DNA of 64,000 nucleotides from Pandoraea communis. Lineage in GTDB: Bacteria; Pseudomonadota; Gammaproteobacteria; Burkholderiales; Burkholderiaceae. Below are positions 44,478 to 64,000 of this stretch, one piece after another. The notes beneath the pieces are model-generated. The model was not told the origin of the DNA, made no database searches, and worked only from the letters and a program-made list of their open reading frames with translations. A program made the translations under genes and the position numbers. Numbering within the stretch: the first letter of the stretch is position 1; every line of letters starts with the position of its first letter. Location of the stretch: contig NZ_CABPSJ010000005.1 of assembly GCF_902459745.1 (NCBI RefSeq), forward strand, positions 186,001 through 250,000. Reading direction: 5' to 3'.

Positions 44478-44633
44478 GGCGCGAGCCTATCATGCGCGGC
44501 GGAATTATCCGAACTTGCCACATTTTCCAAAGCTCGCCGCCCGCTAGCGCAGCAAGATCTGCCGATCTCAACCGGGGCGGCCGACATGCGGTTATCGCGT
44601 GAACGCCCTGCCATACGACCAAGGAGTGTCGTG

Positions 44634-46370: not shown

Positions 46371-46447
46371 AACCCCGCGTGACTGGCGATTAGGGCCACA
46401 GCCTTGTGTGCCCGAGGTGGAGCAACCCACCGGGAAGCGCCGGGGTC
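46371..46447 (+). promoter_or_regulatory. ZTP (pfl) riboswitch upstream of glyA
   Basis: The 5' conserved core CGTGACTGGCG (46378-46388) and the 3' core CCACCGGGAAGCGC (46427-46440) match the pfl/ZTP aptamer. P1 is CCCCG (46373-46377) with CGGGG (46441-46445), and GGTGG (46416-46420) pairs with CCACC (46427-46431). A variable hairpin with GGGC/GCCC lies between. ZTP riboswitches sense ZMP/ZTP, a sign of folate shortage, and turn on one-carbon genes such as glyA, 127 bases downstream here. A later hairpin (46465-46491, GGGCAGC/GCTGCCC) may be the expression platform. Confidence 0.92.
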
Positions 46448-46573
46448 TTATTTGCCGTTCGCCTGGGCAGCCGTGATGGTTGGTGCTGCCCTGTCTCTCG
46501 TCTTCCGAAGCACAAAGGAAGGCGCGCTGCACCATCCCCTCCCGGAAAACCTGTTCAATTCAACGGAAACGCC

Positions 46574-47821
46574 ATGTTCGACAAATCGAAATCTACCGTT
46601 GCCTCCGTCGATCCCGACGTCTGGGCCGCGATTCAGAAAGAAAATCAGCGTCAGGAAGACCACATCGAGCTGATTGCTTCGGAAAACTACACCAGCCCGG
46701 CCGTGATGGAAGCGCAGGGCTCGCAACTGACCAACAAGTATGCGGAAGGTTATCCGGGCAAGCGCTATTACGGTGGTTGCGAATACGTCGACATCGTCGA
46801 GCAACTGGCCATCGACCGCGTGAAGGCGCTGTTCGGTGCAGACGCCGCGAACGTGCAGCCGAACTCGGGCTCGCAGGCGAATCAGGGCGTGTACTTCGCC
46901 ATGCTCAAGCCGGGCGACACGATCATGGGCATGAGCCTCGCGCACGGTGGTCACCTCACGCACGGCTCGCCGGTCAACATGTCGGGCAAGTGGTTCAACG
47001 TGGTGAGCTACGGTCTGAATGAACAGGAAGACATCGATTACGACGCTGCCGAGAAGCTCGCGCAGCAACACAAGCCGAAGATGATCGTGGCGGGCGCATC
47101 GGCCTTCGCCCTGAAGATCGACTTCGAGCGTATGTCGCAGATCGCCAAGTCGGTCGGCGCGTACTTCATGGTCGACATGGCGCACTACGCCGGTCTGATC
47201 GCTGCCGGTGTGTATCCGAACCCGGTGCCGCACGCCGATTTCGTGACTACGACCACGCACAAGAGCCTGCGCGGCCCGCGCGGTGGCGTGATCCTGATGA
47301 AGGCGGAATTCGAGAAGGCCATCAACTCGGCGATCTTCCCGGGTATTCAGGGCGGCCCGCTCATGCACGTGATCGCCGGTAAGGCCGTCGCGTTCAAGGA
47401 AGCCGCCTCGCCGGAATTCAAGGCCTACCAGGAACAAGTCGCGAAGAACGCCCGCGTGATGGCCGAGACGCTGGTCAAGCGCGGCCTGCGTATCGTGTCG
47501 GGCCGTACCGAATCGCATGTGATGCTGGTCGACCTGCGCGCCAAGAACATTACCGGCAAGGCGGCAGAAGCCGCGCTGGGCGAAGCGCATATCACCGTCA
47601 ACAAGAACGCGATTCCGAACGACCCGGAAAAGCCGTTCGTGACGAGCGGCGTGCGTCTGGGCTCGCCGGCCATGACCACGCGCGGTTTCAAGGAAGCAGA
47701 AGCGGAACTGGTCGGCAACCTGATCGCCGACGTGCTCGACAACCCGGAAGACGCCAAGAACCTGGAACGCGTGCGCGAGCAAGTGGCCGAGTTGACCAAG
47801 CGTTTCCCGGTCTACGGCTAA
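46574..47821 (+). CDS. glyA: Serine hydroxymethyltransferase
   Basis: A 415-residue PLP enzyme. The Schiff-base lysine is K230 in [14 protein letters not shown]; the N-terminal [20 protein letters not shown] and [15 protein letters not shown] are diagnostic. It interconverts serine and glycine, charging tetrahydrofolate. It is under a ZTP riboswitch and is followed 15 bases later by nrdR, a conserved neighbour in Burkholderiales. Deoxynucleotide and one-carbon supply are thereby linked in one transcript. Confidence 0.98.
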
Positions 47822-47836
47822 GCCGAGCGCCGACGC

Positions 47837-48319
47837 ATGCGTTGCCCGTTCTGCCGGCACGACGACACGCAGGTCATCGACTCGCGTGAAGCGGAAGACG
47901 GCGCCGCCATCCGGCGGCGCCGGAAATGCCCGTCGTGCGACAAGCGTTTCACCACGTACGAGCGTGTCGAACTGGCGATGCCGGCTGTCGTCAAGAAGGA
48001 CGGCAGCCGCGCCGAATACGACCGCGCGAAAGTGCGCGCCAGCATGCAACTGGCGATTCGCAAGCGTCCTGTGAGCGCCGAGGCCATGGATGCCGCGATT
48101 GCGCGCATCGAGTACAAGTTGCTGGCCGGCGCGGAGCGCGAAGTGATGAGCCAGCGCATCGGCGAACTGGTCATGCGCGAGTTGAAGCGGTTGGACAAGA
48201 TCGCTTATATCCGCTTCGCATCGGTGTACCGGAGCTTCGAGGACATTGCCGAGTTTCGCGATGTGCTCGAGGAAATCGACAGTACCGATATCAAGCCCAA
48301 GCGTAAGCCGGTGGGTTGA
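47837..48319 (+). CDS. nrdR: Ribonucleotide reductase repressor NrdR
   Basis: A 160-residue NrdR with its N-terminal zinc ribbon (C3, C6, C31, C34: [10 protein letters not shown] and [11 protein letters not shown]) and an ATP-cone domain from about 49 to 139 ([20 protein letters not shown]). It senses ATP/dATP and represses nrd genes by binding NrdR boxes elsewhere. It shares a transcript with glyA and ends at the terminator at 48401. Confidence 0.97.
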
Positions 48320-48398: not shown

Positions 48399-48439
48399 AA
48401 ACCCGTCGTGCCTGAAAGGGCGCGACGGGTTTTTTTATG
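48399..48439 (+). terminator. Terminator after nrdR; copy 1 of a 41-base repeat
   Basis: ACCCGTCG (48401-48408) pairs with CGACGGGT (48423-48430), the inner bases also pair, and a T-run follows. The same 41 bases, with one difference, recur at 52556-52596 after the first autotransporter, and a decayed copy follows the second. AT1 is thus bracketed by direct repeats. Confidence 0.9.
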
Positions 48440-48812: not shown

Positions 48813-51800
48813 ATGCAAAGCAAATTTCAGACGTCGAAAACACTTCGTCAATCCAAAATCTGTCTGGCGGTCGCGACGATGCTTGCGGCGATGAGTATGC
48901 CCACGCAGGCGGAAGACGTCATCGAAAGTGAAACGGCAACGTGGAGCGAAGAAAAGAAAAACGTCGCCAAGAGAATGAACGAACGGCTCGTAGAAGTTCA
49001 GGGCGAACGTGAAGAAAAGGACAATATCTTCGATCGTCTGGACGCGTTGAAAACGGTGCGATCAAGCATTCACTCGAGTACCAAGGATATCGCCGATGTA
49101 GTTGCTTACGGTAATAAGCTTGCGGAAATCACCGGCCAAATCGACGGTTTGATTGTCGAGTTGGAAAAGGATGGAGGAAAGGCACTGAGCTTTGATTGGG
49201 AGCGAAAATTGCAGGTGACGGATCTGGCCGATGTCAAACAGCAGATCCAGAAAGTTATTGGCGCCGATCCGGACGAATTTGCTAGTGCACGCAAGCAACT
49301 TGATATCTTCCTTAATAACAATGCAGAACACTCGAAGAGCAGTGATGCGGCAATGGGCGTTTACGCAAAAGTCGCTGCTCTGAAAGCGCGTATCGACGCG
49401 CTTGGCAAGGCCGACGACGTGACATTCAAGGTCATGGCCAATACCAGGGAGTTGGTGGCGCCGTCGCAAAACGGCGCCGACGCCGCGCTGACATGGCGCG
49501 ACGACAACCTGTTCAACTCGCATTTCGATGAGAGCTATGCCGAAGGGAACGTCCAGATCGGTGCTCAAACGTTACTCGAAATCACGCAGCGTTCTGGAAC
49601 CGGATCGAACCCGATCACTGGATTGACGGACTCGACACGTAATGTCGGTACGTTACGTGTTTCGGCGGGCGCGGATCACTCCCTCGATGTCCGTCAGGGC
49701 CAACTGAACATCCACCAGGGAATCGAGGGCAAAGGAACGCTGGGGATTGCCGTAGGCTCAAATGGAACCTTGACGTTTAAGGAAGGCGGTCAGGGGATTG
49801 ATCGCGACGCCGACGGTGTGACGTTGTTGGTCGGTCGTGATGGTAATGCGAATGCCAGCATGCTGGATGCAGGCGGGATCGTTAAGTTCGAATCGGGTAC
49901 CAGCGCAGGAGGGGCATGGATCTGGGCGCTCGACGAGGGGGAGGTATCGTTCGCGGAAGGCGCCGATGCCGGTGTCAGCGAAATCTCCATCTTGAAAGGC
50001 GGGACTGTCAGATTCGAAGGGGCAAACGTCAAGCAATCGTCGATCGTTAGCTCGGGGATCCTGGACATAGCGCGATCATCGGGCGGGGATGCCGAAGTTT
50101 TCAATGAGGTCGATGGTGATCTGAGAGTCGATGCTTCGGCACTCGAGCGAATGCGCTTATCCAACGGTGGGTTTGCGGAGTTGCGGGCATCCTCCGGCGG
50201 TGCGGCGAAGATCGAGAACACGACGTCGGGATTGATCGTTTTCGACGACGGCGCTCTCGAAAATCTCACACTCCGAAACGAAGGGGCGGCGATTGTTACC
50301 GGTGCCTCCGGTGGGAACGCGATCATCGACAATCGTGCATCGGGCAAGGTCGTGTTTCACGATATGGCACTTGAGAACGTCCAACTGTCCAATCAAGGCC
50401 TGATTGGCCTGGTTGGCCAGACCACTGCGGATAAAGCAGTCGTCAGAATGAACGGTGGCACGCTGGACGTTTCGTTCGTTGGAGATACCGTCGAGGTGAC
50501 CTCACCGAATGAGGAAACGACGATGGCGCGCACGGTGATTTTCGTCCCCGGCGTCAAGAAGTCCATCGAGATCGGTTCGCTGTCGGGGACTGGCAATGTC
50601 ATCACAGGGGAAACGGCACTGACGGTGGGGGCTGCGAATCTGGATGGCGAATTTGGCGGCAGTTTTGTGAAAACCGGGGCGGGTATCGGATCGCTCGTCG
50701 ATGAGTGGTTGACAGCGGTGAATCAGGAATCCGAGTCGCTCGCCTTACGCGCACCGGCAGCACCGGCAGCACCGCAGGTGGCCGCAGTGCCGATGCTTCT
50801 GACTAAGGTCGGCACGGGCAACCTGACCCTCTCGGGCGACCAGAGCCAAGTCGACGTCATCAGTGTTCAAGGCGGCACGCTGACGGCGGCACATGAAAAG
50901 GCCCTCGGTTCGGGCGCGTTGAGCGTCGCGCAATCGGCTGCGGTGGTGCTGAATAAGGACGTGAGCGGTGTGAAGGAGATGAGCAACGCTGGCACGATCA
51001 ATCTGGGCACGAACAAGCTCAGCGTCGGGAGCTACAAGTCTGAAGCGGGCGCGAAGATCAACTCGCGCTTTGCCAAGGTCGACGGTCAGGCCACCGGAGG
51101 CACGATTCAGGTCGAGCAGGAGAGCGACTTCAGCAATACGGAAATTAAGGTCGCCGTTGCCGATGACATCGAACTTTCCGATGTTGTGGGCAAGTTCCAG
51201 GTGGTGGAAGCTGCCGATGGAGTCGAAGTGACCGGCGGGAAGTTGAAAGTCGGTAGCATCACCGGCGGCAAGCAAGCGGACCCGAATGTTGGGCAGGAAC
51301 CGATTGGCGAGCCGGGCACGAAGATCACGGACAAGAACATCGTGAAGTTCCTGGCAGCCGACGGTGGTTATACCGCCAACGAGCAAGCGGCGCTGGCGTC
51401 GGTTGACGGCGTGACGGTGGGCGATCTGGCCTCTGGCAAGATCGGCGGCAAGGTGCTGTCGGCCATGGCCCTGCAAACGGCAGGCACGGAAGAGCAACGC
51501 CGTTCGGCCCGTCTGCTCTCGGGCGAGTCGCTGGTGAATAACGCGGTGGCAGCGCAAGCGGCAGCGACGTCGTTCCAGCGCGGCATGCAAACGCGAATGA
51601 TCGCCGGCGGGGCGATGTTCGACGACAAGACCGCGAACGGTGCGATGGTGGCCGATAACGGCGTCGCGGGTTGGGCGTCGTTCAACGGAGGCAAGACGAG
51701 CCAGCGCGGCGACGGCATGTCGTTCGAGGTGAAGGGTCTGGACGGTGCGATCGGTGTAGACAAGCGCCTGAATCAGAACACGTTGGTGGGTGGCTCGATT

Positions 51801-52496
51801 GGCTTTGGCAATCAGGAGTCGAAGGCGAAGGGCCTGCCGGGCGAGTCGAAGGTCAACAGCGTGAGCGTGGGTCTGTACGGCTCGCACCTGACGGGTTCGA
51901 ACTGGTTCGTCAACGGCGGTGCGTCGTACACGAATCACAGCGTGAAGACGGATCGCACGGTGGCCGCCCGTAACGCGTCGGCCCGCGTGGCGGGCAAGAC
52001 GAGCGGACAGACGTTCGGCATGTTCGGTGAAGTGGGTAAGCGCTTTGAGGTGTCGGGTGTGAACATCGACCCGTCGGTGGGTGTGCGTGTGGCGTCGACG
52101 CGTTTGAAAGCGTTCGATGAGACGAACCGTGACGGATCGGGCAACGACGGTCTGAAGGTTGGCTCGCAGTCGCAGACGTCGACGCGCGGTGTGTTGGGTG
52201 TGCGCCTGTGGAGCGAAGTGGCAAGCATTGCAGGGGGCAAGGTAGCGCCGTCGCTGCGCCTGTCGTACGAGCACGAGTTCGGCAAGACGCAGAGCAGCCT
52301 GACGAATGCGATCTACGGTGCGCCGGGCAGCTTCACGGTGAAGGGTCCGAAGCTGGGCAAGGACATTTTCACGGCGGACCTGGGCCTGGACATGCAGCTC
52401 AAGAAGCAACTGGAAGTGCGCGTGGGCGGTAACGTCAGCGTGCGCAAGGGCGAGAGCGCGCTGGGTGGCGGTATCTCGGCGAAGTATCGCTTCTGA
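48813..52496 (+). CDS. Autotransporter AT1 (type Va), beta-helical passenger
   Basis: A 1227-residue autotransporter. A signal of about 33 residues (LRQSKICLAVATMLAAMSMP) is followed by a charged coiled-coil stretch to about residue 200, then a beta-helix passenger with three 38-residue repeats (SxGGxAxIxN pattern starting at bases 50079, 50193 and 50307). PATR-type repeats (TKVGTGNLTLSGDQSQVD) precede a helical linker. The barrel covers about 948-1227 and ends in Phe (SAKYRF). It would be exposed on or cut from the cell surface; adhesion is the usual role, inferred only. Its 3' 1.2 kb is almost identical to AT3. Confidence 0.93.
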   Translation: MQSKFQTSKTLRQSKICLAVATMLAAMSMPTQAEDVIESETATWSEEKKNVAKRMNERLVEVQGEREEKDNIFDRLDALKTVRSSIHSSTKDIADVVAYGNKLAEITGQIDGLIVELEKDGGKALSFDWERKLQVTDLADVKQQIQKVIGADPDEFASARKQLDIFLNNNAEHSKSSDAAMGVYAKVAALKARIDALGKADDVTFKVMANTRELVAPSQNGADAALTWRDDNLFNSHFDESYAEGNVQIGAQTLLEITQRSGTGSNPITGLTDSTRNVGTLRVSAGADHSLDVRQGQLNIHQGIEGKGTLGIAVGSNGTLTFKEGGQGIDRDADGVTLLVGRDGNANASMLDAGGIVKFESGTSAGGAWIWALDEGEVSFAEGADAGVSEISILKGGTVRFEGANVKQSSIVSSGILDIARSSGGDAEVFNEVDGDLRVDASALERMRLSNGGFAELRASSGGAAKIENTTSGLIVFDDGALENLTLRNEGAAIVTGASGGNAIIDNRASGKVVFHDMALENVQLSNQGLIGLVGQTTADKAVVRMNGGTLDVSFVGDTVEVTSPNEETTMARTVIFVPGVKKSIEIGSLSGTGNVITGETALTVGAANLDGEFGGSFVKTGAGIGSLVDEWLTAVNQESESLALRAPAAPAAPQVAAVPMLLTKVGTGNLTLSGDQSQVDVISVQGGTLTAAHEKALGSGALSVAQSAAVVLNKDVSGVKEMSNAGTINLGTNKLSVGSYKSEAGAKINSRFAKVDGQATGGTIQVEQESDFSNTEIKVAVADDIELSDVVGKFQVVEAADGVEVTGGKLKVGSITGGKQADPNVGQEPIGEPGTKITDKNIVKFLAADGGYTANEQAALASVDGVTVGDLASGKIGGKVLSAMALQTAGTEEQRRSARLLSGESLVNNAVAAQAAATSFQRGMQTRMIAGGAMFDDKTANGAMVADNGVAGWASFNGGKTSQRGDGMSFEVKGLDGAIGVDKRLNQNTLVGGSIGFGNQESKAKGLPGESKVNSVSVGLYGSHLTGSNWFVNGGASYTNHSVKTDRTVAARNASARVAGKTSGQTFGMFGEVGKRFEVSGVNIDPSVGVRVASTRLKAFDETNRDGSGNDGLKVGSQSQTSTRGVLGVRLWSEVASIAGGKVAPSLRLSYEHEFGKTQSSLTNAIYGAPGSFTVKGPKLGKDIFTADLGLDMQLKKQLEVRVGGNVSVRKGESALGGGISAKYRF
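51316..52496 (+). repeat. Near-identical barrel-coding repeat, copy in AT1
   Basis: This 1.18-kb direct repeat encodes the linker and barrel. Its partner is 59529-60712 in AT3, with only scattered differences (for example CGCGTGGCG against CGCCTGTCG in one barrel loop). A central part, roughly 51570-51896, is also nearly identical in AT2 (about 55371-55690). Confidence 0.9.
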
Positions 52497-52954
52497 GCCA
52501 GAGCGTCGACGCAGGCGGCCGGAACATCGCGTCTGCTGTCAGCGTTGAAGACAAGAAACCCGTCGTGCCTGAAAGGGCGCGCCGGGTTTTTTTATGTCTC
52601 ATCGCGAATGGTTGCCTCAAGGCAATGCTGTGGAGATGGGGTGTTGGGGGACTGCACATATGTTCTGTCGCATCCGCTATGTGCGTCTTTTGTGGTGATC
52701 CGCTCCCAGAAATTTCAACGAAGAGTTATCGCTCTTAAGTAGTGTTTATAAGGATTTAAGTTGGTTTTTGGGAATTTACCCAATTAATATTAGTGGATTT
52801 ACTTTATAGGAATGCGCCCAATACAAGGCAGAATTTGAAATTTCAGATATTTCTGATCCTAAAATCGATACTCCTTTGGTGACCAGTGTGCCGCTCTCAG
52901 AGTAACGGTGGACGTAGTCGTCGATTTTTGTGAATGAAATGTTGGGGGTATCAA
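52497..52954 (+). other. AT1-AT2 gap: repeated terminator and palindromes
   Basis: The gap has no gene. It begins with the 41-base terminator repeat (52556-52596). TGAAATTTCA (52836-52845) and TCAGA-TATT-TCTGA (52843-52856) overlap about 100-120 bases before AT2. AAATTTCAGAT within it is also found before AT3 (56587-56597). I see no clear -35/-10 pair. Confidence 0.6.
52556..52596 (+). terminator. Terminator after AT1; copy 2 of a 41-base repeat
   Basis: AAACCCG pairs with CGGGTTT at the ends of the hairpin and a T-run follows. It differs from the nrdR terminator at one of 41 bases, and that change (A to C) breaks one pair in the stem. Confidence 0.85.
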
Positions 52955-55900
52955 ATGCAGCGACAGAATTCAAAGGTTGGCGTGCTTCGTCAAACAAAGA
53001 TCTACGTGGCAGTGGCGACGATGGCGGCAGCCGCATCATTTCCGACCATAGTCGAGGCGGATGAGAGGAAAAAAGCGCGCGTTGCCACGCAGCAAGGAAG
53101 TAGCCAGAAAATCAGCGATTGGAAGTCGCAACTCAAAGATCTGGAGACGCAGCGTAACGAGAATAACGAGGCGTATCTAAATGCAACAAGCTGGATTCAT
53201 GATGCAGCATCCCTAAAAAAAATACTAAATATTGAAGTTGAGGAAGAAAGAAATACGGCGCTCAATGAGGTGGCCACTGCGATTTCTAATGCTCTAGGAA
53301 ATGCGGGGAATGGAGGAGGTGGGGATGAGCCGACGCATATCCAGCGGGCGAGTGTGACTGATTTGAGGAATGTCAAAACACACATGGATAAAGTCTTGAA
53401 CGCGGAGGCTGGTGAAAAAAACGAGAGAATCCAGGAATTTAGAGATTTTCTGTCTAACACCGAGCGCTCCGGACGGGCCACAAGTGAGGCAGACCAAGCC
53501 TCGAATGCCCATCGGGAGATTTCGCAGCAGATTGCCGAAGTCAGAAAGTCCTTGAAAGACGCCGGCGAGCCCCAGGATAAGCCCGTCAACCGATACGAGT
53601 TGAGGGCCGGCGAAGACAACACCGTCAAGTGGGAAAACGCCACCTTGAATGGTCTGCCCTACAGTGACGGTGTCAGCAGCCGCTCTGTCGACGAGAAAAC
53701 CACTCTTGAGATCACGCATCGTTCCGGGCGTTCATCGAATCCAATCACCGGAGCGAACGATGCAAAGCGAGATGTCGGTACATTGAATGTTCTGGAGACG
53801 GCAGATCACGTGATGAAGATCGAGAATGGTCAACTGAATATCCACAAGGGCATTGAAGGTGCGGGACGCCTGGGGATTCTTGTTGGAAGAGACGGAAATC
53901 TGACATTCGAGAAAAATGGCGACGGTATTAAAGCCGCCAATGTGGAAATATTTACCGATCCTAAGGCCAATGCGATCGGAGATGGGGGTTTCATTGAGTT
54001 CCAAGATGGCACCAGCGCGGGATCTGCGTTTCTTGAGATCAATTATCGTGGAGAACTAACGTTCGATATTGGTTCCAACGCCGGTGACAGTAAGATAACA
54101 ATTAAAGATGGTGGTATTGCAACCTTTGTCGGGGCCAATGCCAAGTCTTCAATTATCGGCAACTCGGGGCGGCTCGAATTCGACGGGGCACATGGCGGAA
54201 TGGCGACGGTCGACAATATGCGGAATGGAACGGTGAAATTCTTCGATACAGACCTTGAACGCATGACTTTGAAAAACACTGGCACCGCATATTTGCAGGG
54301 CACGACCACTGCGAGTGAGGCTGTCGTCAGTATGCTCGGCGGCACGCTGGATGTTACGGGCGTGGGTAAGTCTACGTCCGCAAATACTTTTTCGGCGACT
54401 GACACGGGCACTGAAAAGGCCGTCACGATTGGTTCGCTGTCCGGCGTTGGCAATGTCATCGCCGGTACTACGGCCCTCACGCTTGGCTCATTGAATCGGG
54501 ACGATGTATTCAACGGCCGGATTATGAAGACCGCCCCGGCGGGTCCGCAGGAGAGTGGCCTTGACAAAGCCCTTCGCGAAAGATTGGAATCGTTAAACAG
54601 GGGGCTTACCACGTCCGTCACGAAAGTCGGCACCGGTAACCTGACGTTCACGAATGACCAGAGTCAAGTCAATGCCATCAATGTTCAAAGTGGCAAGCTG
54701 ACGGCGCAGCATGAAAACGCCCTCGGTTCGGGGAGCGTATCGATTGCCGCCGCAGGTGCGGTTGCCATTCAGGCTCCGAGTGTCTCGGGCGTTAAGGCAA
54801 TCGAGAATGCCGGCGAAATTGATCTGGGGACGAATAGGCTCAGCGTAGAGAGCTACACGTCGAGCGCTGGCGCAAAGATCAAATCGCGTGTTGCCAAGGT
54901 CGGTGATGGCTTCGCGGGGGGCACGATTTATGTCGAGAAGGATAGCGACTTCAGCAATACGGCCTTGGCGGTTGCCGTCGACGATGGCATCAAACTTTCC
55001 GATGTCGAAAACACGTTCGAGGTGGTGACCGCTGCCGAGGGGGCGAAGGTGACCCCCGGAACGACGACGTTCGGTAGCGTTAGCGTTCCTGGCCGCGACC
55101 AGACGAATGAATCGACGAAAATCACCTCAAGGAATGCCGTCAATTTCCTTGCGGCCAACGGCCGCTACACCGCGAATAAGCGAGCGGTACTGGCGTCGGT
55201 GGATGGCGTGAGCGTTGGCGATCTGACCTCCGGCAAGATCGGCGGCAAGGTGCTCTCGGAGATGGCGCTGCAAACGGCGGATACGGCCGAACAACGTCGT
55301 TCGGCACATTTGCTCTCAGGCGAATCGCTGGTGAACAACGCTGTGGCAGCGCAAGCCGCTACCACGTCGTTCCAGCGCGGCATGCAAACGCGGATGATCG
55401 CCGGTGGGGCGATGTTCGACGACAAGACCGCGAACGGTGCGATGGTGGCCGATAACGGCGTCGCGGGTTGGGCGTCGTTCAACGGAGGCAAGACGAGCCA
55501 GCGCGGCGACGGCATGTCGTTCGACGTGAAGGGTCTGGACGGTGCGATCGGTGTTGACAAGCGCCTGAATCAGAACACGTTGGTGGGTGGCTCGATTGGC
55601 TTTGGCAATCAGGAGTCGAAGGCGAAGGGTCTGCCGGGCGAGTCGAAGGTCAACAGCGTGAGCGTGGGTCTGTACGGCTCGCACCTGACTGGCGCGAACT
55701 GGTTCGTCAACGGCGCGGTGTCGTATACGAATCACAGTGTAAAGACAGATCGCACGGTGTCGGCACGTTTTGCGGCGACACGTCTGGCGGGTAAGACGAG
55801 CGGTCGGACGTTCGGCATGTTCGGTGAAGTCGGTAAGCGCTTCGACGTGTCGGGTGTGAACATCGATCCGTCGGTGGGTGTGCGCGTGGCGTCGACGCGT

Positions 55901-56293
55901 CTGAATGCGTTCAACGAAACGAACAGTTACAGCGAAGGCAACGACGGCCTGAAGGTGGGCTCGCAATCGCAGACCTCGACGCGCGGTGTGGTGGGCGTGC
56001 GTCTGTGGAGCGAAGTGGTGAGCATCGCGGGTGGCAAGGTGGCCCCGTCGCTGCGCCTGTCTTATGAGCGCGAGTTCGGCAAGACGCAGAGTAGCCTGAC
56101 GAATGCGATCTATGGCGCGCCGCGCAGCTTCACGGTGAAGGGGCCGAAGTTGGGCAAAGATATCTTCACGGCGGATCTGGGCGTAGACATGCAGATCAAG
56201 AAGCAACTGGAGGTGCGCGCAGGCGGTAACGTCAGCGTGCGTAAGGGCGAGAGCGCGCTGGGCGGTGGTATCTCGGCGAAGTATCGCTTCTGA
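52955..56293 (+). CDS. Autotransporter AT2 (type Va), beta-helical passenger
   Basis: A 1112-residue paralogue of AT1. The signal (LRQTKIYVAVATMAAAASFP) is followed by a charged coiled-coil region to about residue 200, then a beta-helix passenger with only one recognisable copy of the 38-residue repeat (AHGGMATVDNMRNG). PATR-type TKVGTGNLTFTNDQSQVNAI and a barrel at about 833-1112 complete it. The centre of the barrel is almost identical to AT1/AT3 at the DNA level, but the barrel C-terminal half has diverged more. The N-terminal passenger coding region looks more AT-rich than the barrel. GGGGG lies upstream of the ATG. Confidence 0.92.
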   Translation: MQRQNSKVGVLRQTKIYVAVATMAAAASFPTIVEADERKKARVATQQGSSQKISDWKSQLKDLETQRNENNEAYLNATSWIHDAASLKKILNIEVEEERNTALNEVATAISNALGNAGNGGGGDEPTHIQRASVTDLRNVKTHMDKVLNAEAGEKNERIQEFRDFLSNTERSGRATSEADQASNAHREISQQIAEVRKSLKDAGEPQDKPVNRYELRAGEDNTVKWENATLNGLPYSDGVSSRSVDEKTTLEITHRSGRSSNPITGANDAKRDVGTLNVLETADHVMKIENGQLNIHKGIEGAGRLGILVGRDGNLTFEKNGDGIKAANVEIFTDPKANAIGDGGFIEFQDGTSAGSAFLEINYRGELTFDIGSNAGDSKITIKDGGIATFVGANAKSSIIGNSGRLEFDGAHGGMATVDNMRNGTVKFFDTDLERMTLKNTGTAYLQGTTTASEAVVSMLGGTLDVTGVGKSTSANTFSATDTGTEKAVTIGSLSGVGNVIAGTTALTLGSLNRDDVFNGRIMKTAPAGPQESGLDKALRERLESLNRGLTTSVTKVGTGNLTFTNDQSQVNAINVQSGKLTAQHENALGSGSVSIAAAGAVAIQAPSVSGVKAIENAGEIDLGTNRLSVESYTSSAGAKIKSRVAKVGDGFAGGTIYVEKDSDFSNTALAVAVDDGIKLSDVENTFEVVTAAEGAKVTPGTTTFGSVSVPGRDQTNESTKITSRNAVNFLAANGRYTANKRAVLASVDGVSVGDLTSGKIGGKVLSEMALQTADTAEQRRSAHLLSGESLVNNAVAAQAATTSFQRGMQTRMIAGGAMFDDKTANGAMVADNGVAGWASFNGGKTSQRGDGMSFDVKGLDGAIGVDKRLNQNTLVGGSIGFGNQESKAKGLPGESKVNSVSVGLYGSHLTGANWFVNGAVSYTNHSVKTDRTVSARFAATRLAGKTSGRTFGMFGEVGKRFDVSGVNIDPSVGVRVASTRLNAFNETNSYSEGNDGLKVGSQSQTSTRGVVGVRLWSEVVSIAGGKVAPSLRLSYEREFGKTQSSLTNAIYGAPRSFTVKGPKLGKDIFTADLGVDMQIKKQLEVRAGGNVSVRKGESALGGGISAKYRF

Positions 56294-56785
56294 GCCTGAA
56301 CGTTGACGTAGGCGGCCGGAGCATCACGCTTCCCGTCAGCGTTGAAGACAAGAAACCCGTCGTTCCCGAAAGGGCACGGCGGTTTTTTTATTTTCGGCGT
56401 TCGGTAACGGCGCCTGCCCTTCTCGCGGAAGTGAAATGTGTTGGAGACCACGTGACGCGGGGAGGGAATGTGTCGATGGGAAACGACTTGCTTCGCTCCG
56501 TCATCCGTTGTTTGCGTGCCGCATTTTTTGCGTGATTGGGAGATTTCTGACGATGAAGTACGTTTTATTGGGATTAATCAATAGTTAAATTTCAGATTTA
56601 TTGGGATTTGCCGCAAATCAACAAAAAAACGATCTCTTGGGTTAAGTATCAAATCCGAGTGTTTTTGCATCGATTTCGATAGTCCGGCTTTTAGACTTCG
56701 TGAGCCTTGACGCAGGTCGTAGTGCCGTGTCTGGAGTGCGATGAAGCAATTCATCATTTTCACGAATTAAATTGTGGATTATCGA
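56294..56785 (+). other. AT2-AT3 gap: decayed terminator copy and AT3 promoter elements
   Basis: There is no gene here. The first 100 bases match the AT1 3' flank, including a degraded terminator (56353-56391) with a run of seven T. Further on, TGGGATTAATC (56569-56579), TTGGGTTAA (56637-56645) and TTGCATCGATTTCGATA (56665-56681) repeat the AT1 promoter elements. Confidence 0.65.
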
Positions 56786-59700
56786 ATGCAAAAGAACCAT
56801 CCGAAGTCGAACGCTCTGCGTCAGACGAAAATTTGCATGGCCGTCGCGGCTGTGGTGACGGCAGCAGCGCTGCCGGGGTATGCGGTGGCAACCCCGACGT
56901 GGGAAGAAACCAGAGAAGCAAGAGTCACTGAGCTGACAAAAGCAGAAAGCGGGCTGACCGTTGTCGCAGAGAATGCGTTACTGGAAAAGCAAACGAAGCT
57001 TGATAACGTAAAAAGATACGAAGCATTCGCTCGGCAAGTTGAGAGGATTCTCTCTGATGAGAATGTTGACGATGCGACGAAATTTTCGAATCTTAAGCCG
57101 GTGGCAGAGAGAATTAAAGTCGAAGTCAGTAGACTCGTTAAGGTGAGGGGGAGTGACGCTGCGAACAAGGCGTGGCATGCGGAATACGAAGGTTTCCTCA
57201 CCGCGTTTATGCGCAAGGTGGACGACATCAGCAGTCCCGCAGAAATCAAGTCCGACCACGCCTCAAGCAAGGCGCTGAGTGCCCACGTGGAGAAAAGCGC
57301 CGTTGACGGACTTGTCGATCCTGCAAAGACAGCCGTCGTCGAAGCGCAGCAACATCTTGAACTCCTGAAGCACAAGGCTGCTTCGCTGGGCGGTGCCGCT
57401 AGCGAAGAGGAATACAAGCACCTCACCGAAAAGACGTTCCTGCTTAACGCGAACGCGGCTAATGCTGAAAAGAACAGTGGTGTCCTGACCTGGAACGATA
57501 AAAATCTGCAGACTTTCGTGAACGAAACAGCGCTGGCTGCTGGTCACGACAAGATTGTCCAGGCCGCCACCCTCGAAATCGGCAGTTTTTCGGGCGGAGC
57601 ATCCGACGCGATTCATGGTGTTGCGGCAGCGCAGGGGATCAAGACTCGTGAAATCGCCACGCTTCGCGCACTCGACGGCGCCAAGCACGATGTTCAGGTT
57701 GTGGAAGGCGCTCTGAACATTCATCAGTTCATCGAAACCGAAGGCAACGGAGCGCTTTCGGTGACGCTCGGTAAAAAGGGTGTTCTGCACTTCGAGGACC
57801 AAGCCAAAGATGCCAGAGGTGGCATCAAGGGCGATAACGTGACGCTGGTCGCTGGGAGCGCTGACGTTGCGGTTGCCATTAACAAGGCGGATGAGGGCGC
57901 CAAGATTGCATTTGGAGATGGGACGAGCGCCGGCAACGCTAAGATCGATCTCTACAGCGGTGCCAGCTTGGAATTCAACAAGGGTTCTGATGCCGGGAAC
58001 AGCAAGATCACTGTCGCTCGTGCGGTGACGAGTGAAGATGTTGCCGATCGGGTGGTCGAACGTGAGGCTGCTATGGAGGCCAACGTCCACGCCGATCTCA
58101 GCGCACTCCCGGAACTTACCGAACAGCTTGGCGCCAAGCTCGAGTTCGAAGACTCGTCTGCGGGTGAAGCCGACATTACCAATGCCGGTGCTCTCACTTT
58201 CACGGCGTCCGATCTGAGCACTGCGGAGCTGAAGAATGTGGCAGGCGGGACGGTCACCATCAAAGGCAAGGAAGTCGGTGTTTTCGACGATCAGGGCAAC
58301 GAGGTTATCGACCCTGAAAACAATTTACAAAAGCAGGAGATGAAATTGTCGGACGGTGGTGCTGCCCTTGTCTTTAACCAAGGGACACTGACTGTCGAGA
58401 ACACGAATCTCAATGAGGTGGCTTTGCAAAGCGCTGGCACGACGACCATTGCCAAGTCGAAGGGCGGCAAGGCAACGCTCGCAAATTGGCTGGGCGGCGA
58501 TCTTGCGATCAGCGAAACGCAACTTCAAGACATGAAGCTGGTCAATGCCGGCAAGGCGACTATCACAGAGTCGGACGGCGGCAAAGCACTCATCGCCAAC
58601 CTTCAAGACGGCGAACTGACTCTCACCGACACGAAGCTCCAAAGTTTGGCACTGGCCAACGAGGGCGCCGTCAAGATGACCGGCAAAACCACTGCCACCA
58701 ACGCGTCGATCACATTGCATGGCGGTTCGTTGGACGTTTCTGAAATTGCGATTACCGACATTGACGCTGGCGCCGGCAAGCCTGAAAACTCGCTCACCAT
58801 CGGTTCGCTGACCGGCAAGGGCGACGTGGTTACTGGCAATACGGTGCTGATGCTCGGAGAACTGGGCAACGACGACCACTTCGAAGGCAATATCTCTCGT
58901 GAAGCGGCAAAGCCGGGTACGCAGTCATATCCGAACGTTTTGCACGCGAACGTGCTGACTTCGCAACCGGTCGGCTCGAACGTGGTCAAGGTCGGCACGG
59001 GCAACCTGACGTTGTCCGGCGATCAGAGCGGTGTGACGAACCTGAGTGTTCAAGGCGGTAAGCTGACGGCAGCACATCCCAACGCGCTGGGTTCGGGGGC
59101 CGTGAACGTCGCCAAGGCGGGCACGATCGCACTGAGCACGGATGTGAGCGGCGTGAATAACCTGCAGAACGACGGCACGCTGGATCTCGGAATGAACAAG
59201 CTCGAGGTGGGCACCTACGCGTCCGAGGCGGGCGCGAAGATCAAGTCGCGCATCGAGAAAGTCGAAGGCAAGCTGAGCGGTGGCCAGATTCACGTCTCGG
59301 AAAGCAGCGATTTCGGCAACACGACGCTTGACGTTACCGCTGCCGCCGACATCGAAATTCAAGATCTCGTGGACACGTTTGAAGTGGTGAGCGCTGAAGG
59401 TGACGCAGAAGTGACCGGCGTCGAATTCACCGTGGGTAGCATCACCGGCGGTAAGCAACCGGATCCGACGATTAAGGACCCGGATGGTCCGAATGTTGGA
59501 CCGGAAACACCAACTATCGAGCCGGGCACGGGCACGAAGATCACGGACAAGAACATCGTGAAGTTCCTGGCGGCCGACGGTGGTTACAGCGCCAACGAGC
59601 AAGCGGCGCTGGCGTCGGTTGACGGCGTGATGGTGGGTGATCTGGCGTCGGGCAAGATCGGCGGCAAGGTGCTGTCGGCCATGGCCCTGCAAACGGCAGG

Positions 59701-60712
59701 CACGGAAGAGCAACGCCGTTCGGCTCGTATGCTCTCGGGTGAGTCGCTGGTGAATAACGCGGTGGCAGCGCAAGCGGCAGCGACGTCGTTCCAGCGCGGC
59801 ATGCAAACGCGGATGATCGCCGGCGGGGCGATGTTCGACGACAAGACCGCGAACGGTGCGATGGTGGCCGATAACGGCGTCGCGGGTTGGGCGTCGTTCA
59901 ACGGAGGCAAGACGAGCCAGCGCGGCGACGGCACGAAGTTCGAGGTGAAGGGTCTGGACGGTGCGATCGGTGTTGACAAGCGCCTGAATCAGAACACGTT
60001 GGTGGGTGGCTCGATTGGCTTTGGCAATCAGGAGTCGAAGGCGAAGGGCCTGCCGGGCGAGTCGAAGGTCAACAGCGTGAGCGTGGGTCTGTACGGCTCG
60101 CACCTGACGGGTTCGAACTGGTTCGTCAACGGCGGTGCGTCGTACACGAATCACAGCGTGAAGACGGATCGCACGGTGGCCGCGCGTAACGCGTCGGCCC
60201 GCCTGTCGGGCAAGACGAGCGGACAGACGTTCGGCATGTTCGGTGAAGTGGGTAAGCGCTTTGAGGTGTCGGGTGTGAACATCGACCCGTCGGTGGGTGT
60301 GCGTGTGGCGTCGACGCGTTTGAAAGCGTTCGATGAGACGAACCGTGACGGATCGGGCAACGACGGTCTGAAGGTTGGCTCGCAGTCGCAGACGTCGACG
60401 CGCGGTGTGTTGGGTGTGCGTCTGTGGAGCGAAGTGGCAAGCATTGCAGGGGGCAAGGTGGCGCCGTCGCTGCGCCTGTCGTACGAGCACGAGTTCGGCA
60501 AGACGCAGAGCAGCCTGACGAATGCGATCTACGGTGCGCCGAGCAGCTTCACGGTGAAGGGTCCGAAGCTGGGCAAGGATATCTTCACGGCGGACCTGGG
60601 CCTGGACATGCAGCTCAAGAAGCAACTGGAAGTGCGCGTGGGCGGTAACGTCAGCGTGCGCAAGGGCGAGAGCGCGCTGGGCGGTGGTATCTCGGCGAAG
60701 TATCGCTTCTAA
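56786..60712 (+). CDS. Autotransporter AT3 (type Va), beta-helical passenger
   Basis: The largest of the set, 1308 residues. The signal (LRQTKICMAVAAVVTAAALP) leads into a charged helical stretch and a long beta-helix. Passenger repeats start at bases 58349, 58457 and 58571 (36 and 38 residues apart), in the form SxGGxAxxxN. PATR-type KVGTGNLTLSGDQSGVTNLS, a linker and a barrel at about 1030-1308 follow. The linker and barrel are nearly identical to AT1, but the passenger differs. The start was set at the ATG at 56786, which shares ATTATCGA just before it with AT1; a GTG at 56774 is also in frame. Confidence 0.93.
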   Translation: MQKNHPKSNALRQTKICMAVAAVVTAAALPGYAVATPTWEETREARVTELTKAESGLTVVAENALLEKQTKLDNVKRYEAFARQVERILSDENVDDATKFSNLKPVAERIKVEVSRLVKVRGSDAANKAWHAEYEGFLTAFMRKVDDISSPAEIKSDHASSKALSAHVEKSAVDGLVDPAKTAVVEAQQHLELLKHKAASLGGAASEEEYKHLTEKTFLLNANAANAEKNSGVLTWNDKNLQTFVNETALAAGHDKIVQAATLEIGSFSGGASDAIHGVAAAQGIKTREIATLRALDGAKHDVQVVEGALNIHQFIETEGNGALSVTLGKKGVLHFEDQAKDARGGIKGDNVTLVAGSADVAVAINKADEGAKIAFGDGTSAGNAKIDLYSGASLEFNKGSDAGNSKITVARAVTSEDVADRVVEREAAMEANVHADLSALPELTEQLGAKLEFEDSSAGEADITNAGALTFTASDLSTAELKNVAGGTVTIKGKEVGVFDDQGNEVIDPENNLQKQEMKLSDGGAALVFNQGTLTVENTNLNEVALQSAGTTTIAKSKGGKATLANWLGGDLAISETQLQDMKLVNAGKATITESDGGKALIANLQDGELTLTDTKLQSLALANEGAVKMTGKTTATNASITLHGGSLDVSEIAITDIDAGAGKPENSLTIGSLTGKGDVVTGNTVLMLGELGNDDHFEGNISREAAKPGTQSYPNVLHANVLTSQPVGSNVVKVGTGNLTLSGDQSGVTNLSVQGGKLTAAHPNALGSGAVNVAKAGTIALSTDVSGVNNLQNDGTLDLGMNKLEVGTYASEAGAKIKSRIEKVEGKLSGGQIHVSESSDFGNTTLDVTAAADIEIQDLVDTFEVVSAEGDAEVTGVEFTVGSITGGKQPDPTIKDPDGPNVGPETPTIEPGTGTKITDKNIVKFLAADGGYSANEQAALASVDGVMVGDLASGKIGGKVLSAMALQTAGTEEQRRSARMLSGESLVNNAVAAQAAATSFQRGMQTRMIAGGAMFDDKTANGAMVADNGVAGWASFNGGKTSQRGDGTKFEVKGLDGAIGVDKRLNQNTLVGGSIGFGNQESKAKGLPGESKVNSVSVGLYGSHLTGSNWFVNGGASYTNHSVKTDRTVAARNASARLSGKTSGQTFGMFGEVGKRFEVSGVNIDPSVGVRVASTRLKAFDETNRDGSGNDGLKVGSQSQTSTRGVLGVRLWSEVASIAGGKVAPSLRLSYEHEFGKTQSSLTNAIYGAPSSFTVKGPKLGKDIFTADLGLDMQLKKQLEVRVGGNVSVRKGESALGGGISAKYRF
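59529..60712 (+). repeat. Near-identical barrel-coding repeat, copy in AT3
   Basis: Direct-repeat partner of 51316-52496, about 8.2 kb apart in the same orientation. Homologous recombination between the two would delete AT2 and join the AT1 passenger to the AT3 barrel. Confidence 0.9.
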
Positions 60713-61274
60713 GGTAGTCGGCAGGACGCTTTCCTCGTGAGGGGAAGGCGCGGATCTTTCCCAACGGGATCTGGGTGACGCATCGGGTAGTCATGATCGA
60801 TGCGTCGACCGTTTAATGCCATTGGGTCAAAACCCCCGTTACTCATCGGTAACGGGGGTTTTTTACATTTGAATGCGAGCGCCTTGGGATGAAATAGAAA
60901 AATCGAAAATGACGTTAGATCGGATAACTGATGATTCACCATCGGATGAACGGGCCACATTCGTTCAATGTGCAATCTATGGCTCAATGAGTCATTCCAT
61001 CATGGGGCGTGAATTTGATGGCGAAGCGCTAGAAAATTGGCTTGCTTTGGTGGAATTCAATAATATCCTCGTATTGAATGGTGATTTGCGCCATGAATTT
61101 CATGGGATATGTCCCAAGATCGGGTTTTTGGATGGGGGATTTCCCAATGCGGCATCCCGAAGACTGTTAATACGTTAATTGCGTCCTACGATTCATGTCA
61201 CTCATCGAATGCAACGCAACTTGCGTGTTGTTGTTCGATATCTGCCAATCACGAATTGAAGAGGGACGTAGCGC
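60713..61274 (+). other. AT3-AT4 gap
   Basis: It holds the AT3 terminator (60831-60864) and then AT-rich sequence leading to AT4. CCATGAA-T-TTCATGG (61091-61105) is a perfect 15-base palindrome about 170 bases before AT4. A 101-codon open frame at 60873-61178 lacks a ribosome-binding site and family features, and I do not call it. The AT1/AT3 promoter elements are absent. Confidence 0.55.
60831..60864 (+). terminator. Terminator after AT3
   Basis: AACCCCCGTTAC (60831-60842) pairs perfectly with GTAACGGGGGTT (60849-60860) across a 6-base loop, followed by T residues. It is unrelated to the terminator shared by nrdR, AT1 and AT2. Confidence 0.95.
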
Positions 61275-63089
61275 ATGAATGCAAACCGTATCGACGTAGC
61301 AGCACAGACGTATCAGCACGATAAGGCGGACGCAATGGCGCGCCGACTGCATCGCACCGCGATGGCGGGCGCGGCGGCTCTGGTGTTGACGGGCGGTACG
61401 CTTGCTTCCGGCGGCGTGGCTGCGGAGGTTCTCAGTGAAATGACGGTCGAAGAAAAGAAGCGGCCGCGATTTGCTGATATCGCGCGACGCTTTGTGACGC
61501 CGGACTTCCTCGAATCGCGCAGGGATCGTGCGCATGCGAACCGTTTGCTCGACGAGCAGGTTGCGCGTGTGGCGCAAGCCAATCGGGACGTCGCCACGGT
61601 GAAAATGCGTTCCGACGCCGCAAGCAAGCAGTTGGATAAGGTGCGAGAAGGGTTGAACGTGTGGGAGAGACTCGTCAGATCACCGCAAAGGCTCATTGAC
61701 GCAGAGAATGCGAAACGTGAAGCGGAAAGCGCCTTGAAATCTGCGCAGGACAATCTCGCGGCCGAGAAGGCAGGGAAGAAGGAACGTATCGAAGCGGTAG
61801 CTAAGGCAACGTTGCGCACGGTGGCGGCTGACGCGAAGCGAGAAGAGATGAGGGAATTCAGAGCCGAGACAATCAAGGCGTTGCGAGACGATGCGTCTGC
61901 ACAGAAAGAAACAGACGTGCCGAAGCTCGATGAGCAAGCGGAATCTGGCATCGTCGATAGAAACACGAGCGGGAAGAACGAGGACAGTGGGGAGCCGGAA
62001 GCCCCGACGCCCGAGAGTGGCACGGTCGAGTCTGACGATCTCGCTGCCGATTCGCTTGAAAATCCGGCTGAAGAAGATGCCCTTGGGCAACCGCAGGTCG
62101 ACCCGGTAGCACAAGCTATGGCCTCGGGCGTGGTCTTGACTCAAATGGCCAACGCCGCGCAACAGAATGCCGACCTGTTCCGCAGGGGTATGCAAGACCG
62201 TCTGTCGGGCGACGATGCGTTTATGCAGCCGACGGACATCGAATCGACGGCGAGCGGCATCTCCACCTGGGCGCAAGCCATGGGCGCTCAGACGACCGGA
62301 CGGGCGCGCGGTGATATTGCGGGCTTCTCCATGCGCGGTGCCGGTATTGTGACGGGCGTCGACGTTAAGAAGAACAACACGCGAGTCGGTGTGGCAGTGG
62401 GCTACGGCGATGCGACCGCCGACGCCAGAGGCGAGAATAGTCAGAGCGCCTCGTCGAAGGTGAGCACGTACAGCGTCGGTCTGTATGGCGCCCACGAAGT
62501 CGATGGCTGGTTCGCTAACGGTGGTGTGTCGTATAGCGCGCACAGCATCAAGAGCCAGCGTGCGCCGAAACTGGATGGCGAAGTCTATGGCCTGAGCGGC
62601 AAGACGAACGCTACGACCGTGGGCGGCTTCGCACAGTTCGGCAAGCACATCGTCACACGCGCCGTGAACATCGATCCGAGCATCACCCTCAAGGTGTCGA
62701 ACACCTCGGTGAAGGGCTTCACCGAAAACGGCGATGCCGGTCTCAAGGTCGACGGCAGCAACTTCAACTCGGCACGGGTGGGCATTGGCGCGCGTCTGTG
62801 GAAGGCGTTCGGCGACGAGTCGCACAGCGTCACGCCGTCGCTGCGTATTTCTTACGAGCGCGAACTGGCGCATGCCGCGCCGTCGATGGACGTGGCACTC
62901 GCCAACGCCGCGAATGCCGGCAAGATGACCGTCACGGGCAACAAGTTGGGCCGCGATATCGTGAGCGCGGAAACCAGCGTCGACGTGAAGCTCGGCAAGA
63001 AGCTCTCGCTTCGCGGTGGCGTGAACGGCAGCGTGCGCCAAGGTCAAACGCAAGCCGGCGTGGCCGGTTCGCTCAAGTACGTCTGGTAA
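61275..63089 (+). CDS. Autotransporter AT4, short coiled-coil passenger
   Basis: A 604-residue protein with an autotransporter barrel (about 326-604, ending in Trp: SLKYVW). A signal-like helix lies at about 25-48 (TAMAGAAALVLTGGTLASGG) after a basic n-region. The passenger has no beta-helix or PATR repeats; residues about 50-230 are Lys/Glu/Ala-rich heptads (AENAKREAESALKSAQDNLA), followed by an acidic Pro/Glu linker (EDSGEPEAPTPESGTVESDD). The barrel is homologous to AT1-AT3 (LFRRGMQDRL, SVGLYGAHEVDGWFANGGVS) but well diverged. GAGGGA precedes the ATG at 61275. Confidence 0.9.
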   Translation: MNANRIDVAAQTYQHDKADAMARRLHRTAMAGAAALVLTGGTLASGGVAAEVLSEMTVEEKKRPRFADIARRFVTPDFLESRRDRAHANRLLDEQVARVAQANRDVATVKMRSDAASKQLDKVREGLNVWERLVRSPQRLIDAENAKREAESALKSAQDNLAAEKAGKKERIEAVAKATLRTVAADAKREEMREFRAETIKALRDDASAQKETDVPKLDEQAESGIVDRNTSGKNEDSGEPEAPTPESGTVESDDLAADSLENPAEEDALGQPQVDPVAQAMASGVVLTQMANAAQQNADLFRRGMQDRLSGDDAFMQPTDIESTASGISTWAQAMGAQTTGRARGDIAGFSMRGAGIVTGVDVKKNNTRVGVAVGYGDATADARGENSQSASSKVSTYSVGLYGAHEVDGWFANGGVSYSAHSIKSQRAPKLDGEVYGLSGKTNATTVGGFAQFGKHIVTRAVNIDPSITLKVSNTSVKGFTENGDAGLKVDGSNFNSARVGIGARLWKAFGDESHSVTPSLRISYERELAHAAPSMDVALANAANAGKMTVTGNKLGRDIVSAETSVDVKLGKKLSLRGGVNGSVRQGQTQAGVAGSLKYVW

Positions 63090-63231: not shown

Positions 63232-64000
63232 TCAGAACGAGTGCGACACCCCGATATAAGCACCGGTCTGGCTCTTGCCTGCGGGCGGGTTATCGAGCGA
63301 GTCGCTCGGAATGGCCGCGACGGAGAAGCTCTGATTTGCGCTGTTCTTGACATAAGCGACCGTGCCGTACAGGAACGTGCGTTTCGACAGGTTGTACGTC
63401 GTGCCCAGCTCGAACATCGTGGCGTGACCAAAGCCGCCCGGCACATTCACGTGATACACCGCCGCATTCGCGGCCCACACCTGGGTCGCCTGATACTTCA
63501 CGCCAGCCCAATAGTGATCGGCGCGTGTCGCGAAATCGGGGGCCGGCGCGTCCGGGGCGGACATATGGGTGTAGCCCAGCGAAATCGTGAAACGGTTCAG
63601 GAACACGTTCGCGCCTGCGAAGTACTCGCGCGACGTGGCGAAGACATCGGTGAAGCGTCCGTTGGTGTCGCGAATTTCGTCGTACAACGCCCGCAACTGG
63701 AACCGGTCATGCGTGTACGTCAACTGTGCCCCCATGCCCCGGCCGTTATTGAACTGCCCGGCGATGTTGGAGAACGCGTACTGACCCGCGACATCGAAGC
63801 CGTACCAGTTCGGGCTTTGATAGTTGACGGTATTGCTCGCCTGCGGCCAGTTACGTCCTCGCACGAGCGACGCCGAGGAAAACGCCTGCTGTTGGAACGG
63901 ATCGAAGTCCCAGACGCCGTTGCTGATGAACAGATTGCGGCCGAGCGTCAATTGCCCCCACGAGCGGGAGTTCAGACCGACCAGTGCGCGCCGGTCGAAG
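63232..64000 (-). CDS. General porin (OmpC-like), N-terminus off the window
   Basis: The frame is open to the right edge; about 255 C-terminal residues of a Gram-negative trimeric porin are visible. Features include SWGQLTLGRNLF and repeated amphipathic strands (VNYQSPNWYGFDVAGQYAFS), ending in GAYIGVSHSF with the terminal Phe used for outer-membrane insertion. It forms a diffusion channel in the outer membrane, as in many Burkholderiales porins. An in-frame Met at 63951 is internal and not the start. Confidence 0.93.
   Translation of the reverse strand, partial: FDRRALVGLNSRSWGQLTLGRNLFISNGVWDFDPFQQQAFSSASLVRGRNWPQASNTVNYQSPNWYGFDVAGQYAFSNIAGQFNNGRGMGAQLTYTHDRFQLRALYDEIRDTNGRFTDVFATSREYFAGANVFLNRFTISLGYTHMSAPDAPAPDFATRADHYWAGVKYQATQVWAANAAVYHVNVPGGFGHATMFELGTTYNLSKRTFLYGTVAYVKNSANQSFSVAAIPSDSLDNPPAGKSQTGAYIGVSHSF

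Follow-up and report, generated by a model that had tools for sequence, protein, structure and literature searches.

We analyzed a 64,000-nucleotide stretch of the draft genome of Pandoraea communis (contig NZ_CABPSJ010000005.1, positions 186,001 to 250,000; hereafter, the window), in which four co-oriented tandem autotransporter genes, AT1 to AT4, lie between glyA-nrdR and a convergent porin gene. Very probably, this array is one in which barrel-coding DNA is converted within each species, passengers persist as old lineages and are occasionally exchanged between species, and recombination from barrel to barrel can shorten the row of genes. AT1 (48813-52496), AT2 (52955-56293) and AT3 (56786-60712) are intact open reading frames (ORFs) on the forward strand, each with a Pfam Autotransporter beta-domain. 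A preliminary description of this DNA had named these three; AT4 (61275-63089, same strand), a shorter autotransporter gene whose barrel is 41% identical to that of AT1, is a fourth and stands outside the homogenized set.

The mosaic is seen directly when the three genes are compared. Over the 1,176 sites of linker and barrel, AT1 (51318-52493) and AT3 (59534-60709) differ at 25 (97.9% identity), in agreement with the earlier claim of likeness over about 1.18 kb, while AT2 differs from AT1 at 135 and from AT3 at 132. The overall identity of AT2 to AT1 is 88.5%, rising to 98.5% in a tract of 325 bp that the three genes have in common. The best low-divergence interval is 51568-51892 in AT1 and 55365-55689 in AT2, close to the central block (about 55371-55690) reported before; 5 of 325 sites differ inside it, as against 130 of 851 outside. 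AT2 thus does diverge on both sides of the block, as had been stated, but is still about 85% identical to AT1 there. When codons were shuffled 20,000 times, a 108-codon interval with as few differences as in the real sequence arose with p = 5e-5 (p = 0.005 in an earlier version with 200 shuffles), and four-fold sites differ at 4 of 60 positions in the tract versus 43 of 152 outside (Fisher p = 4e-4). As four-fold sites are also clean, protein constraint alone is insufficient as an explanation.

Outside linker and barrel, the passengers of AT1, AT2 and AT3 share only 42-49% DNA identity with each other. Upstream of about 51316, identity between AT1 and AT3 falls in gapped windows from 95% to 77% and then 66%; the steeper drop in another windowed comparison is partly due to loss of register. 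As the preliminary description had it, AT1 and AT2 have 3' flank in common (99 bp at 85% identity); the flank of AT3 matches neither. The promoter elements that it assigned to the 5' side of AT1 and AT3 correspond to a real likeness (91 bp at 73%), although this is mostly start-codon and signal-peptide DNA, with 14 bp upstream of the ATG. The sole match between the upstream spacers of AT1 and AT3 is a terminator copy of about 40 bp.

For comparison across the genus we searched 32 Pandoraea genomes, one per species and including the window's own (G000); P. cepalis (G003), P. horticolens (G005), P. bronchicola (G008) and Pandoraea sp. ASV26 (G022) are those most often referred to below. A barrel match at E <= 1e-20 was obtained in 24 of the 32. 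The layout of the slot beside nrdR was read in 30, leaving out G002 (1.2 Mb, no nrdR match) and G029 (no barrel match). Five genomes have no gene like AT1-AT4 in the slot (G004, G006, G014, G023 and G025), three have a gene of 376-377 residues (G009, G010 and G027), two have one long gene (G012 and G015), ten have two divergent genes, two have an AT1-type gene followed by AT4 (G017 and G026) and five have an array with AT4 (G000, G003, G005, G008 and G022); in the remaining three (G016, G019 and G028) only fragments are visible. The short gene of G027 (L097 2609-3742), when translated, consists of a signal peptide and a barrel with almost no passenger; its counterparts lie at L098 8019-9149 in G010 and L099 7948-9081 in G009. 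In G020 (L071 5588-9105), two overlapping frames of 958 and 258 residues stand in place of an intact first gene of the pair, which thus looks broken. An rpoB tree served as the species reference and covered 30 of the 32 genomes (G002 and G014 gave no locus; G029 was scored as having no array from the barrel search alone). In this tree, G000 and P. horticolens are sisters (100/99).

Between these two sisters, the passengers of AT1 and AT2 are 84.8% and 78.8% identical, respectively, and are orthologues also by tree. The passenger tree, with 28 rows (the ATb gene of P. cepalis, barrel-only fragments of G008 and G022, and five of the ten two-gene species were left out), keeps the AT1, AT2 and AT3 lineages separate. 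We also computed trees for linker, central tract and 3' barrel (13, 13 and 12 rows). In the linker (99/98) and the 3' barrel (100/99), the AT2 gene of the window is paired as sister with that of P. horticolens, while in the central tract AT1, AT2 and AT3 of the window group together (87/87) and the AT2 pairing is rejected (approximately unbiased (AU) test, p 0.042). The AT2 tract thus lies between two segments whose relationships are those of orthologues. AT1 and AT3 of the window are sisters in every segment, and orthology of AT1 between the two species is rejected in the linker (AU p 0.027).

Synonymous distances (pS) follow the same pattern. AT1 and AT3 show pS of 0.10 in the linker, 0.03 in the tract and 0.05 in the 3' barrel, where orthologues of the window and P. 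horticolens show 0.20-0.43; AT1 and AT2 show 0.06 in the tract, with 0.49 and 0.33 on either side. Within the window, tract pS is 0.03-0.06, versus 0.20 and 0.22 to P. horticolens. In P. cepalis, genes b and c have pS of 0.08-0.09 in tract and barrel and are sisters in the tract and the 3' barrel. The AT1 and AT3 genes of P. horticolens have pS of 0.04 (29 codons), and its AT1 and AT2 genes 0.14 in the tract, slightly below the orthologue distances. The paired genes of G022 have a pS of 0.06 in the linker and show no synonymous difference over the 34 codons compared in the tract; for G008, the pre-barrel region gives 0.23, versus 0.45-0.52 to orthologues. Some 3' segment is therefore homogenized in all five array species with paired sequence, with varying limits, the exceptions to within-species likeness being the linker of P. 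cepalis and most of the AT2 barrel. We observe, then, that in the same segment paralogues are closer within species than orthologues are between species. Taken together, these data suggest that the barrels of AT1 and AT3, like the AT2 tract, postdate the divergence from P. horticolens, and the rest of the AT2 barrel appears to follow orthology. The earlier proposal that gene conversion homogenizes the export module across the array is supported by the segment trees and synonymous distances, from which we infer conversion as the process.

Exchange of passengers, also proposed earlier, finds its evidence between species, in an observed conflict between the AT3 passenger and rpoB. The AT3 passenger of the window is sister to that of P. 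bronchicola (100/100), and forcing it together with that of P. horticolens is rejected (AU p 4e-70); rpoB in turn rejects a pairing of G000 with G008 (p 0.0002). When AT3 of the window is compared with that of P. horticolens, identity is 94.3% over the initial 105 bp, drops to 38-69% in each interval within 56891-59017 and returns to 73-85% beyond, and the AT3 upstream spacer is 86.7% identical to that of P. horticolens and 80.6% to that of P. bronchicola. These data support a probable passenger exchange between species at AT3, with either the window's lineage or the other as the receiver. The AT3 passenger of G022 is itself a mosaic: its identity to the window is 78-87% across 58592-59017, but upstream of there, apart from the first 105 bp, it is 32-68%. 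Moreover, in the passenger tree, the closest neighbours of the AT2-type passengers found in the window and in P. horticolens are the first genes of G003, G019 and G028, a further sign that passenger type and array position may not be tied. A system of antigenic variation from silent donor cassettes was considered and rejected, as no passenger copy was found elsewhere in the window's draft genome: all six profile matches at E <= 1e-5 lie in AT1, AT2 and AT3. With no internal donor, the source of a new passenger would be other cells.

The spacers hold traces of growth. A 41-bp terminator after nrdR (48399-48439, repeat D10) recurs after AT1 (52556-52596, 98%) and after AT2 (56353-56393, 80%), and its 23-base core has three matches in the whole genome with up to three mismatches allowed, none of them beyond these copies. 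In P. cepalis, the spacer between genes b and c begins with about 50 bp like the AT3-AT4 spacer and continues with an nrdR-type terminator and the AT3 upstream spacer. The duplicated unit may thus have run from the nrdR terminator through one gene, the first copy of the terminator marking its left edge.

Shrinkage is suggested by G017 (on a 5.49-Mb contig) and G026 (one contig), in which the observed layout is a gene with an AT1-type passenger, preceded by the AT1 upstream spacer and separated from AT4 by a 3' spacer of the AT3 type. A tree in which these passengers join the AT3 type is rejected (p 9e-36). This layout is the one expected from crossing over between a first and a last barrel; however, any single gene must have both outer flanks, and the weight for loss therefore lies on the trees. 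In the rpoB tree, both genomes fall in a clade with G000, G005, G008, G016 and G022 (97/98), and a tree that sets the other five apart as a clade of their own is rejected (p 0.023). As AT3-type passengers also occur outside that clade (G003, G012 and G015), a loss in G017 and G026 is a better fit than a single ancestral gene. Array loss in these two species has moderate support, and the deletions themselves would be of the barrel-barrel kind. The preliminary description had expected recombination between AT1 and AT3 to delete AT2 and to swap a passenger. The deletion of AT2 stands, but no swap would follow: an event between these barrels would keep the AT1 passenger and remove that of AT3, which is what the layout of G017 and G026 resembles. 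As a whole, that earlier interpretation is partly supported.

A history that would account for these patterns begins in Pandoraea, where the array would have arisen when a unit that comprised the nrdR terminator and one autotransporter gene was duplicated. Homologous recombination between the copies would then overwrite linker and barrel DNA in each species and produce concerted evolution, while the passengers, mostly too different to recombine with each other, would persist as old lineages. In the lineage of the window, after the split from P. horticolens, conversion would have covered the entire 1.18 kb in AT1 and AT3 and a single stretch of about 325 bp in AT2. Passengers would occasionally be replaced from other species, probably through recombination in the conserved DNA around them, and crossing over between barrels could shorten the array.

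Selection could be thought to keep the barrels alike without any recombination, and the low nonsynonymous distances of the barrel (pN 0.01-0.06 in the 3' barrel) would suit this; yet silent sites are alike only within species, the tract pS within the window being far below the 0.20-0.37 seen to other species. The upper part of that range (0.27-0.37) comes from comparisons to the AT1 genes of G017 and G026 and to AT3 of P. cepalis, which shows that the tract is not a slow region. The species with two divergent genes provide a natural control: in the five of ten that were compared, barrel identity is 62-64% for A and B of one species and 73-84% from species to species, with no homogenization, perhaps because these barrels are too different to recombine. 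Selection alone is hardly credible on these grounds. It is also improbable that one of AT1 and AT3 is a recent copy of the other with a replaced passenger, rather than AT3 being an old gene with a converted barrel. The AT1 and AT3 barrels are indeed young (pS 0.03-0.10) and their passengers far apart, as such a duplication would have it, but orthologues of the AT3 upstream spacer, of its signal-peptide DNA and of its 3' spacer occur in G005, G008 and G003, and these species also have AT3-type passengers, so that AT3 was already in place. Conversion is needed in any case for the AT2 tract, which lies between stretches of orthologous DNA. Each of AT1, AT2 and AT3 is preceded by a spacer with an orthologue in P. 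horticolens (83-91%), and the same holds for two parts of the AT3-AT4 spacer (86-87%); the genes therefore stayed put while their barrels changed.

The quality of the assemblies should also be considered. The genome of the window (5.7 Mb) is a draft of 17 contigs, and near-identical barrels might be collapsed or mis-joined. Among the seven fragmented slots, contigs end in or shortly before the barrel in six (G005, G008, G016, G019, G022 and G028), while that of P. cepalis breaks elsewhere. Two G022 contigs have the same last 127 bases, within the linker-barrel segment, and two G008 contigs the same last 77, as near-identical repeats would cause; two G005 contigs show no such common end. The contig ends at which these drafts break concern L057-L066, L091, L093 and L095; they restrict how far barrels can be read in the fragmented species, and copy numbers of the array in public drafts are unreliable for this reason. 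Nonetheless, an artefact is very improbable as the source of the pattern, since the copies differ at 25 to 135 sites, two homogenized genes lie on one P. cepalis contig, and the passengers and spacers have orthologues, in order, in P. horticolens.

Several results weigh against the history of conversion and exchange that we prefer and should be kept in mind. AT1 orthology withstands the test in the central tract (AU p 0.061), where the clade of window genes has support of just 87/87 and the pair of AT1 and AT2 from P. horticolens has 53/21. Genes b and c of P. cepalis are not homogenized in the linker (pS 0.31), where they are not sisters. A run-length test of the GENECONV kind gave p 0.10 for AT1/AT3 (0.43 at silent sites), 0.56 for AT2/AT3 and 0.016 for AT1/AT2, the last on a 3-site run and with 1.0 at silent sites; on three window copies this test is uninformative, because conversion of all three removes variable sites. 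At AT3, the first 105 bp of the window are 90-96% identical to all four other species compared, and the DNA just 3' of the passenger (after 59018) is about equally close to G005 and G008. As neither region discriminates, the sisterhood of the flanks with P. horticolens rests on the upstream spacer and rpoB. A clade of all eight species with arrays or fragments, without G017 and G026, is not rejected (p 0.09). Finally, the genome set holds no single-contig genome with three copies, and in the draft assembly of the window a phase error between AT1 and AT3 is possible, although 25 differing sites are not what a collapse of two copies would give.

At the protein level, PF03797 scores above its cut-off at the C-terminus of all four proteins (4.5e-50 for AT1); AT1, AT2 and AT3 end in KYRF and AT4 in KYVW. 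By sequence, AT1-AT4 are type Va classical autotransporter genes, with predicted surface display. The AT4 protein of the window has 604 residues, its relatives in G026, G017, G003, G008 and G022 have 740-758 and that of G005 has 567. A structural model of the AT1 passenger from a 9-row alignment (mean predicted local distance difference test score, pLDDT, 79.2; predicted template modelling score, pTM, 0.65) has helices at model residues 12-177, followed by a predicted long beta-helix that aligns to a metagenomic beta-helix domain, TibA, UpaB, Antigen 43 (Ag43) and pertactin. Relative to these solved passengers, the model adds the helical head, which precedes the start of the alignments. In the corresponding DNA (48909-49457, compared with L059), pS between the window and P. 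horticolens is 0.49, versus 0.21 in the beta-helix, which hints at a recombined head. In a Foldseek search of the PDB with the whole AT1 passenger, three chains reached E <= 0.001: two belong to Ag43 and the third is 4kh3, whose title names a bacterial self-associating protein. A role as an adhesin or aggregation factor would be a guess from the model, as likeness in fold to Ag43, TibA, UpaB or pertactin implies no common function. An autotransporter serine peptidase of the EprS type was rejected: NF051851 gave 46.9 bits for AT1, 53.1 for AT3 and 75.3 for AT4, against a cut-off of 1700, and did not match AT2.

Among known systems, UspA1, UspA2 and UspA2H of Moraxella catarrhalis are trimeric and not known to form a tandem array, unlike the genes described here. 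According to PMC3458076, recombination among them gives hybrids and has moved a binding segment into both genes; exchange was demonstrated there by transformation, whereas in Pandoraea it is deduced from trees. The Vomp family of Bartonella quintana, as reviewed in PMC10936683, resembles the Pandoraea array in having tandem autotransporter genes at one locus. Vomps are, however, trimeric, while the Pandoraea barrels are 255-residue PF03797 domains, with a common 3' barrel beside old and divergent passengers. As a further likeness, members of the Vomp family were missing from a clone from an infected animal and from clinical isolates; in Pandoraea, represented by one genome per species, any loss would be one between species. 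In Bartonella grahamii and its relatives, autotransporter clusters were proposed to grow or shrink by tandem duplication or deletion (PMC2697382); the cluster tree was built from beta-domains only, and the available part of that account contains no comparison of barrel and passenger ancestry. The literature searched on autotransporters, gene conversion and concerted evolution, with subscription papers mostly outside its reach, held no description of the Pandoraea array.

The remaining features of the window concern the edges of the array. The left anchor of the slot is glyA (46406-47821, forward; serine hydroxymethyltransferase, Pfam SHMT 1.4e-171 on 46574-47818), which is the same neighbour in relatives, followed by nrdR (47837-48319, forward; Pfam Zn_ribbon_NrdR and ATP-cone), present in 18 of 20 genomes searched and the immediate left anchor of the array. 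The right anchor is a porin gene on the reverse strand (63232-63999; Pfam Porin_4 1.2e-26) that crosses the window edge and adjoins the array in relatives. The three copies of the nrdR-type terminator, all on the forward strand, fold with -27.6 (z -7.6), -22.5 and -17.4 kcal/mol, respectively, and AT3 is followed by a terminator-like hairpin unlike those after AT1 and AT2 (60829-60862, forward; 15-pair stem, -23.8 kcal/mol for 60822-60872). Each of these four folds better than all 200 of its own shuffles; terminator-like sites overall number 17 versus 16.2 in shuffles and show no excess. For promoters, two consensus matches were found versus 4.4 expected in shuffles. A 545-residue ORF precedes glyA (44415-46052); its stretch 44646-46049 (468 residues) has no Pfam match to E 0.1 and no NCBIfam match to E 0.01.

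These results do not overturn known mechanisms. We also considered that the array might be an evolved exchange platform, in which barrel conversion keeps uniform homology arms beside every passenger for the capture of passengers from other Pandoraea species; we regard this as unlikely, though worth entertaining, and, if it were true, array length and surface repertoire would turn over faster than the genome. What the array offers in any case is one gene family in which the history of the export module can be separated from that of the exposed part, with a natural control in the unhomogenized gene pair. Autotransporter trees built from beta-domains only, as in PMC2697382, can thus show recombination history rather than protein history, and passenger exchange between species becomes testable.

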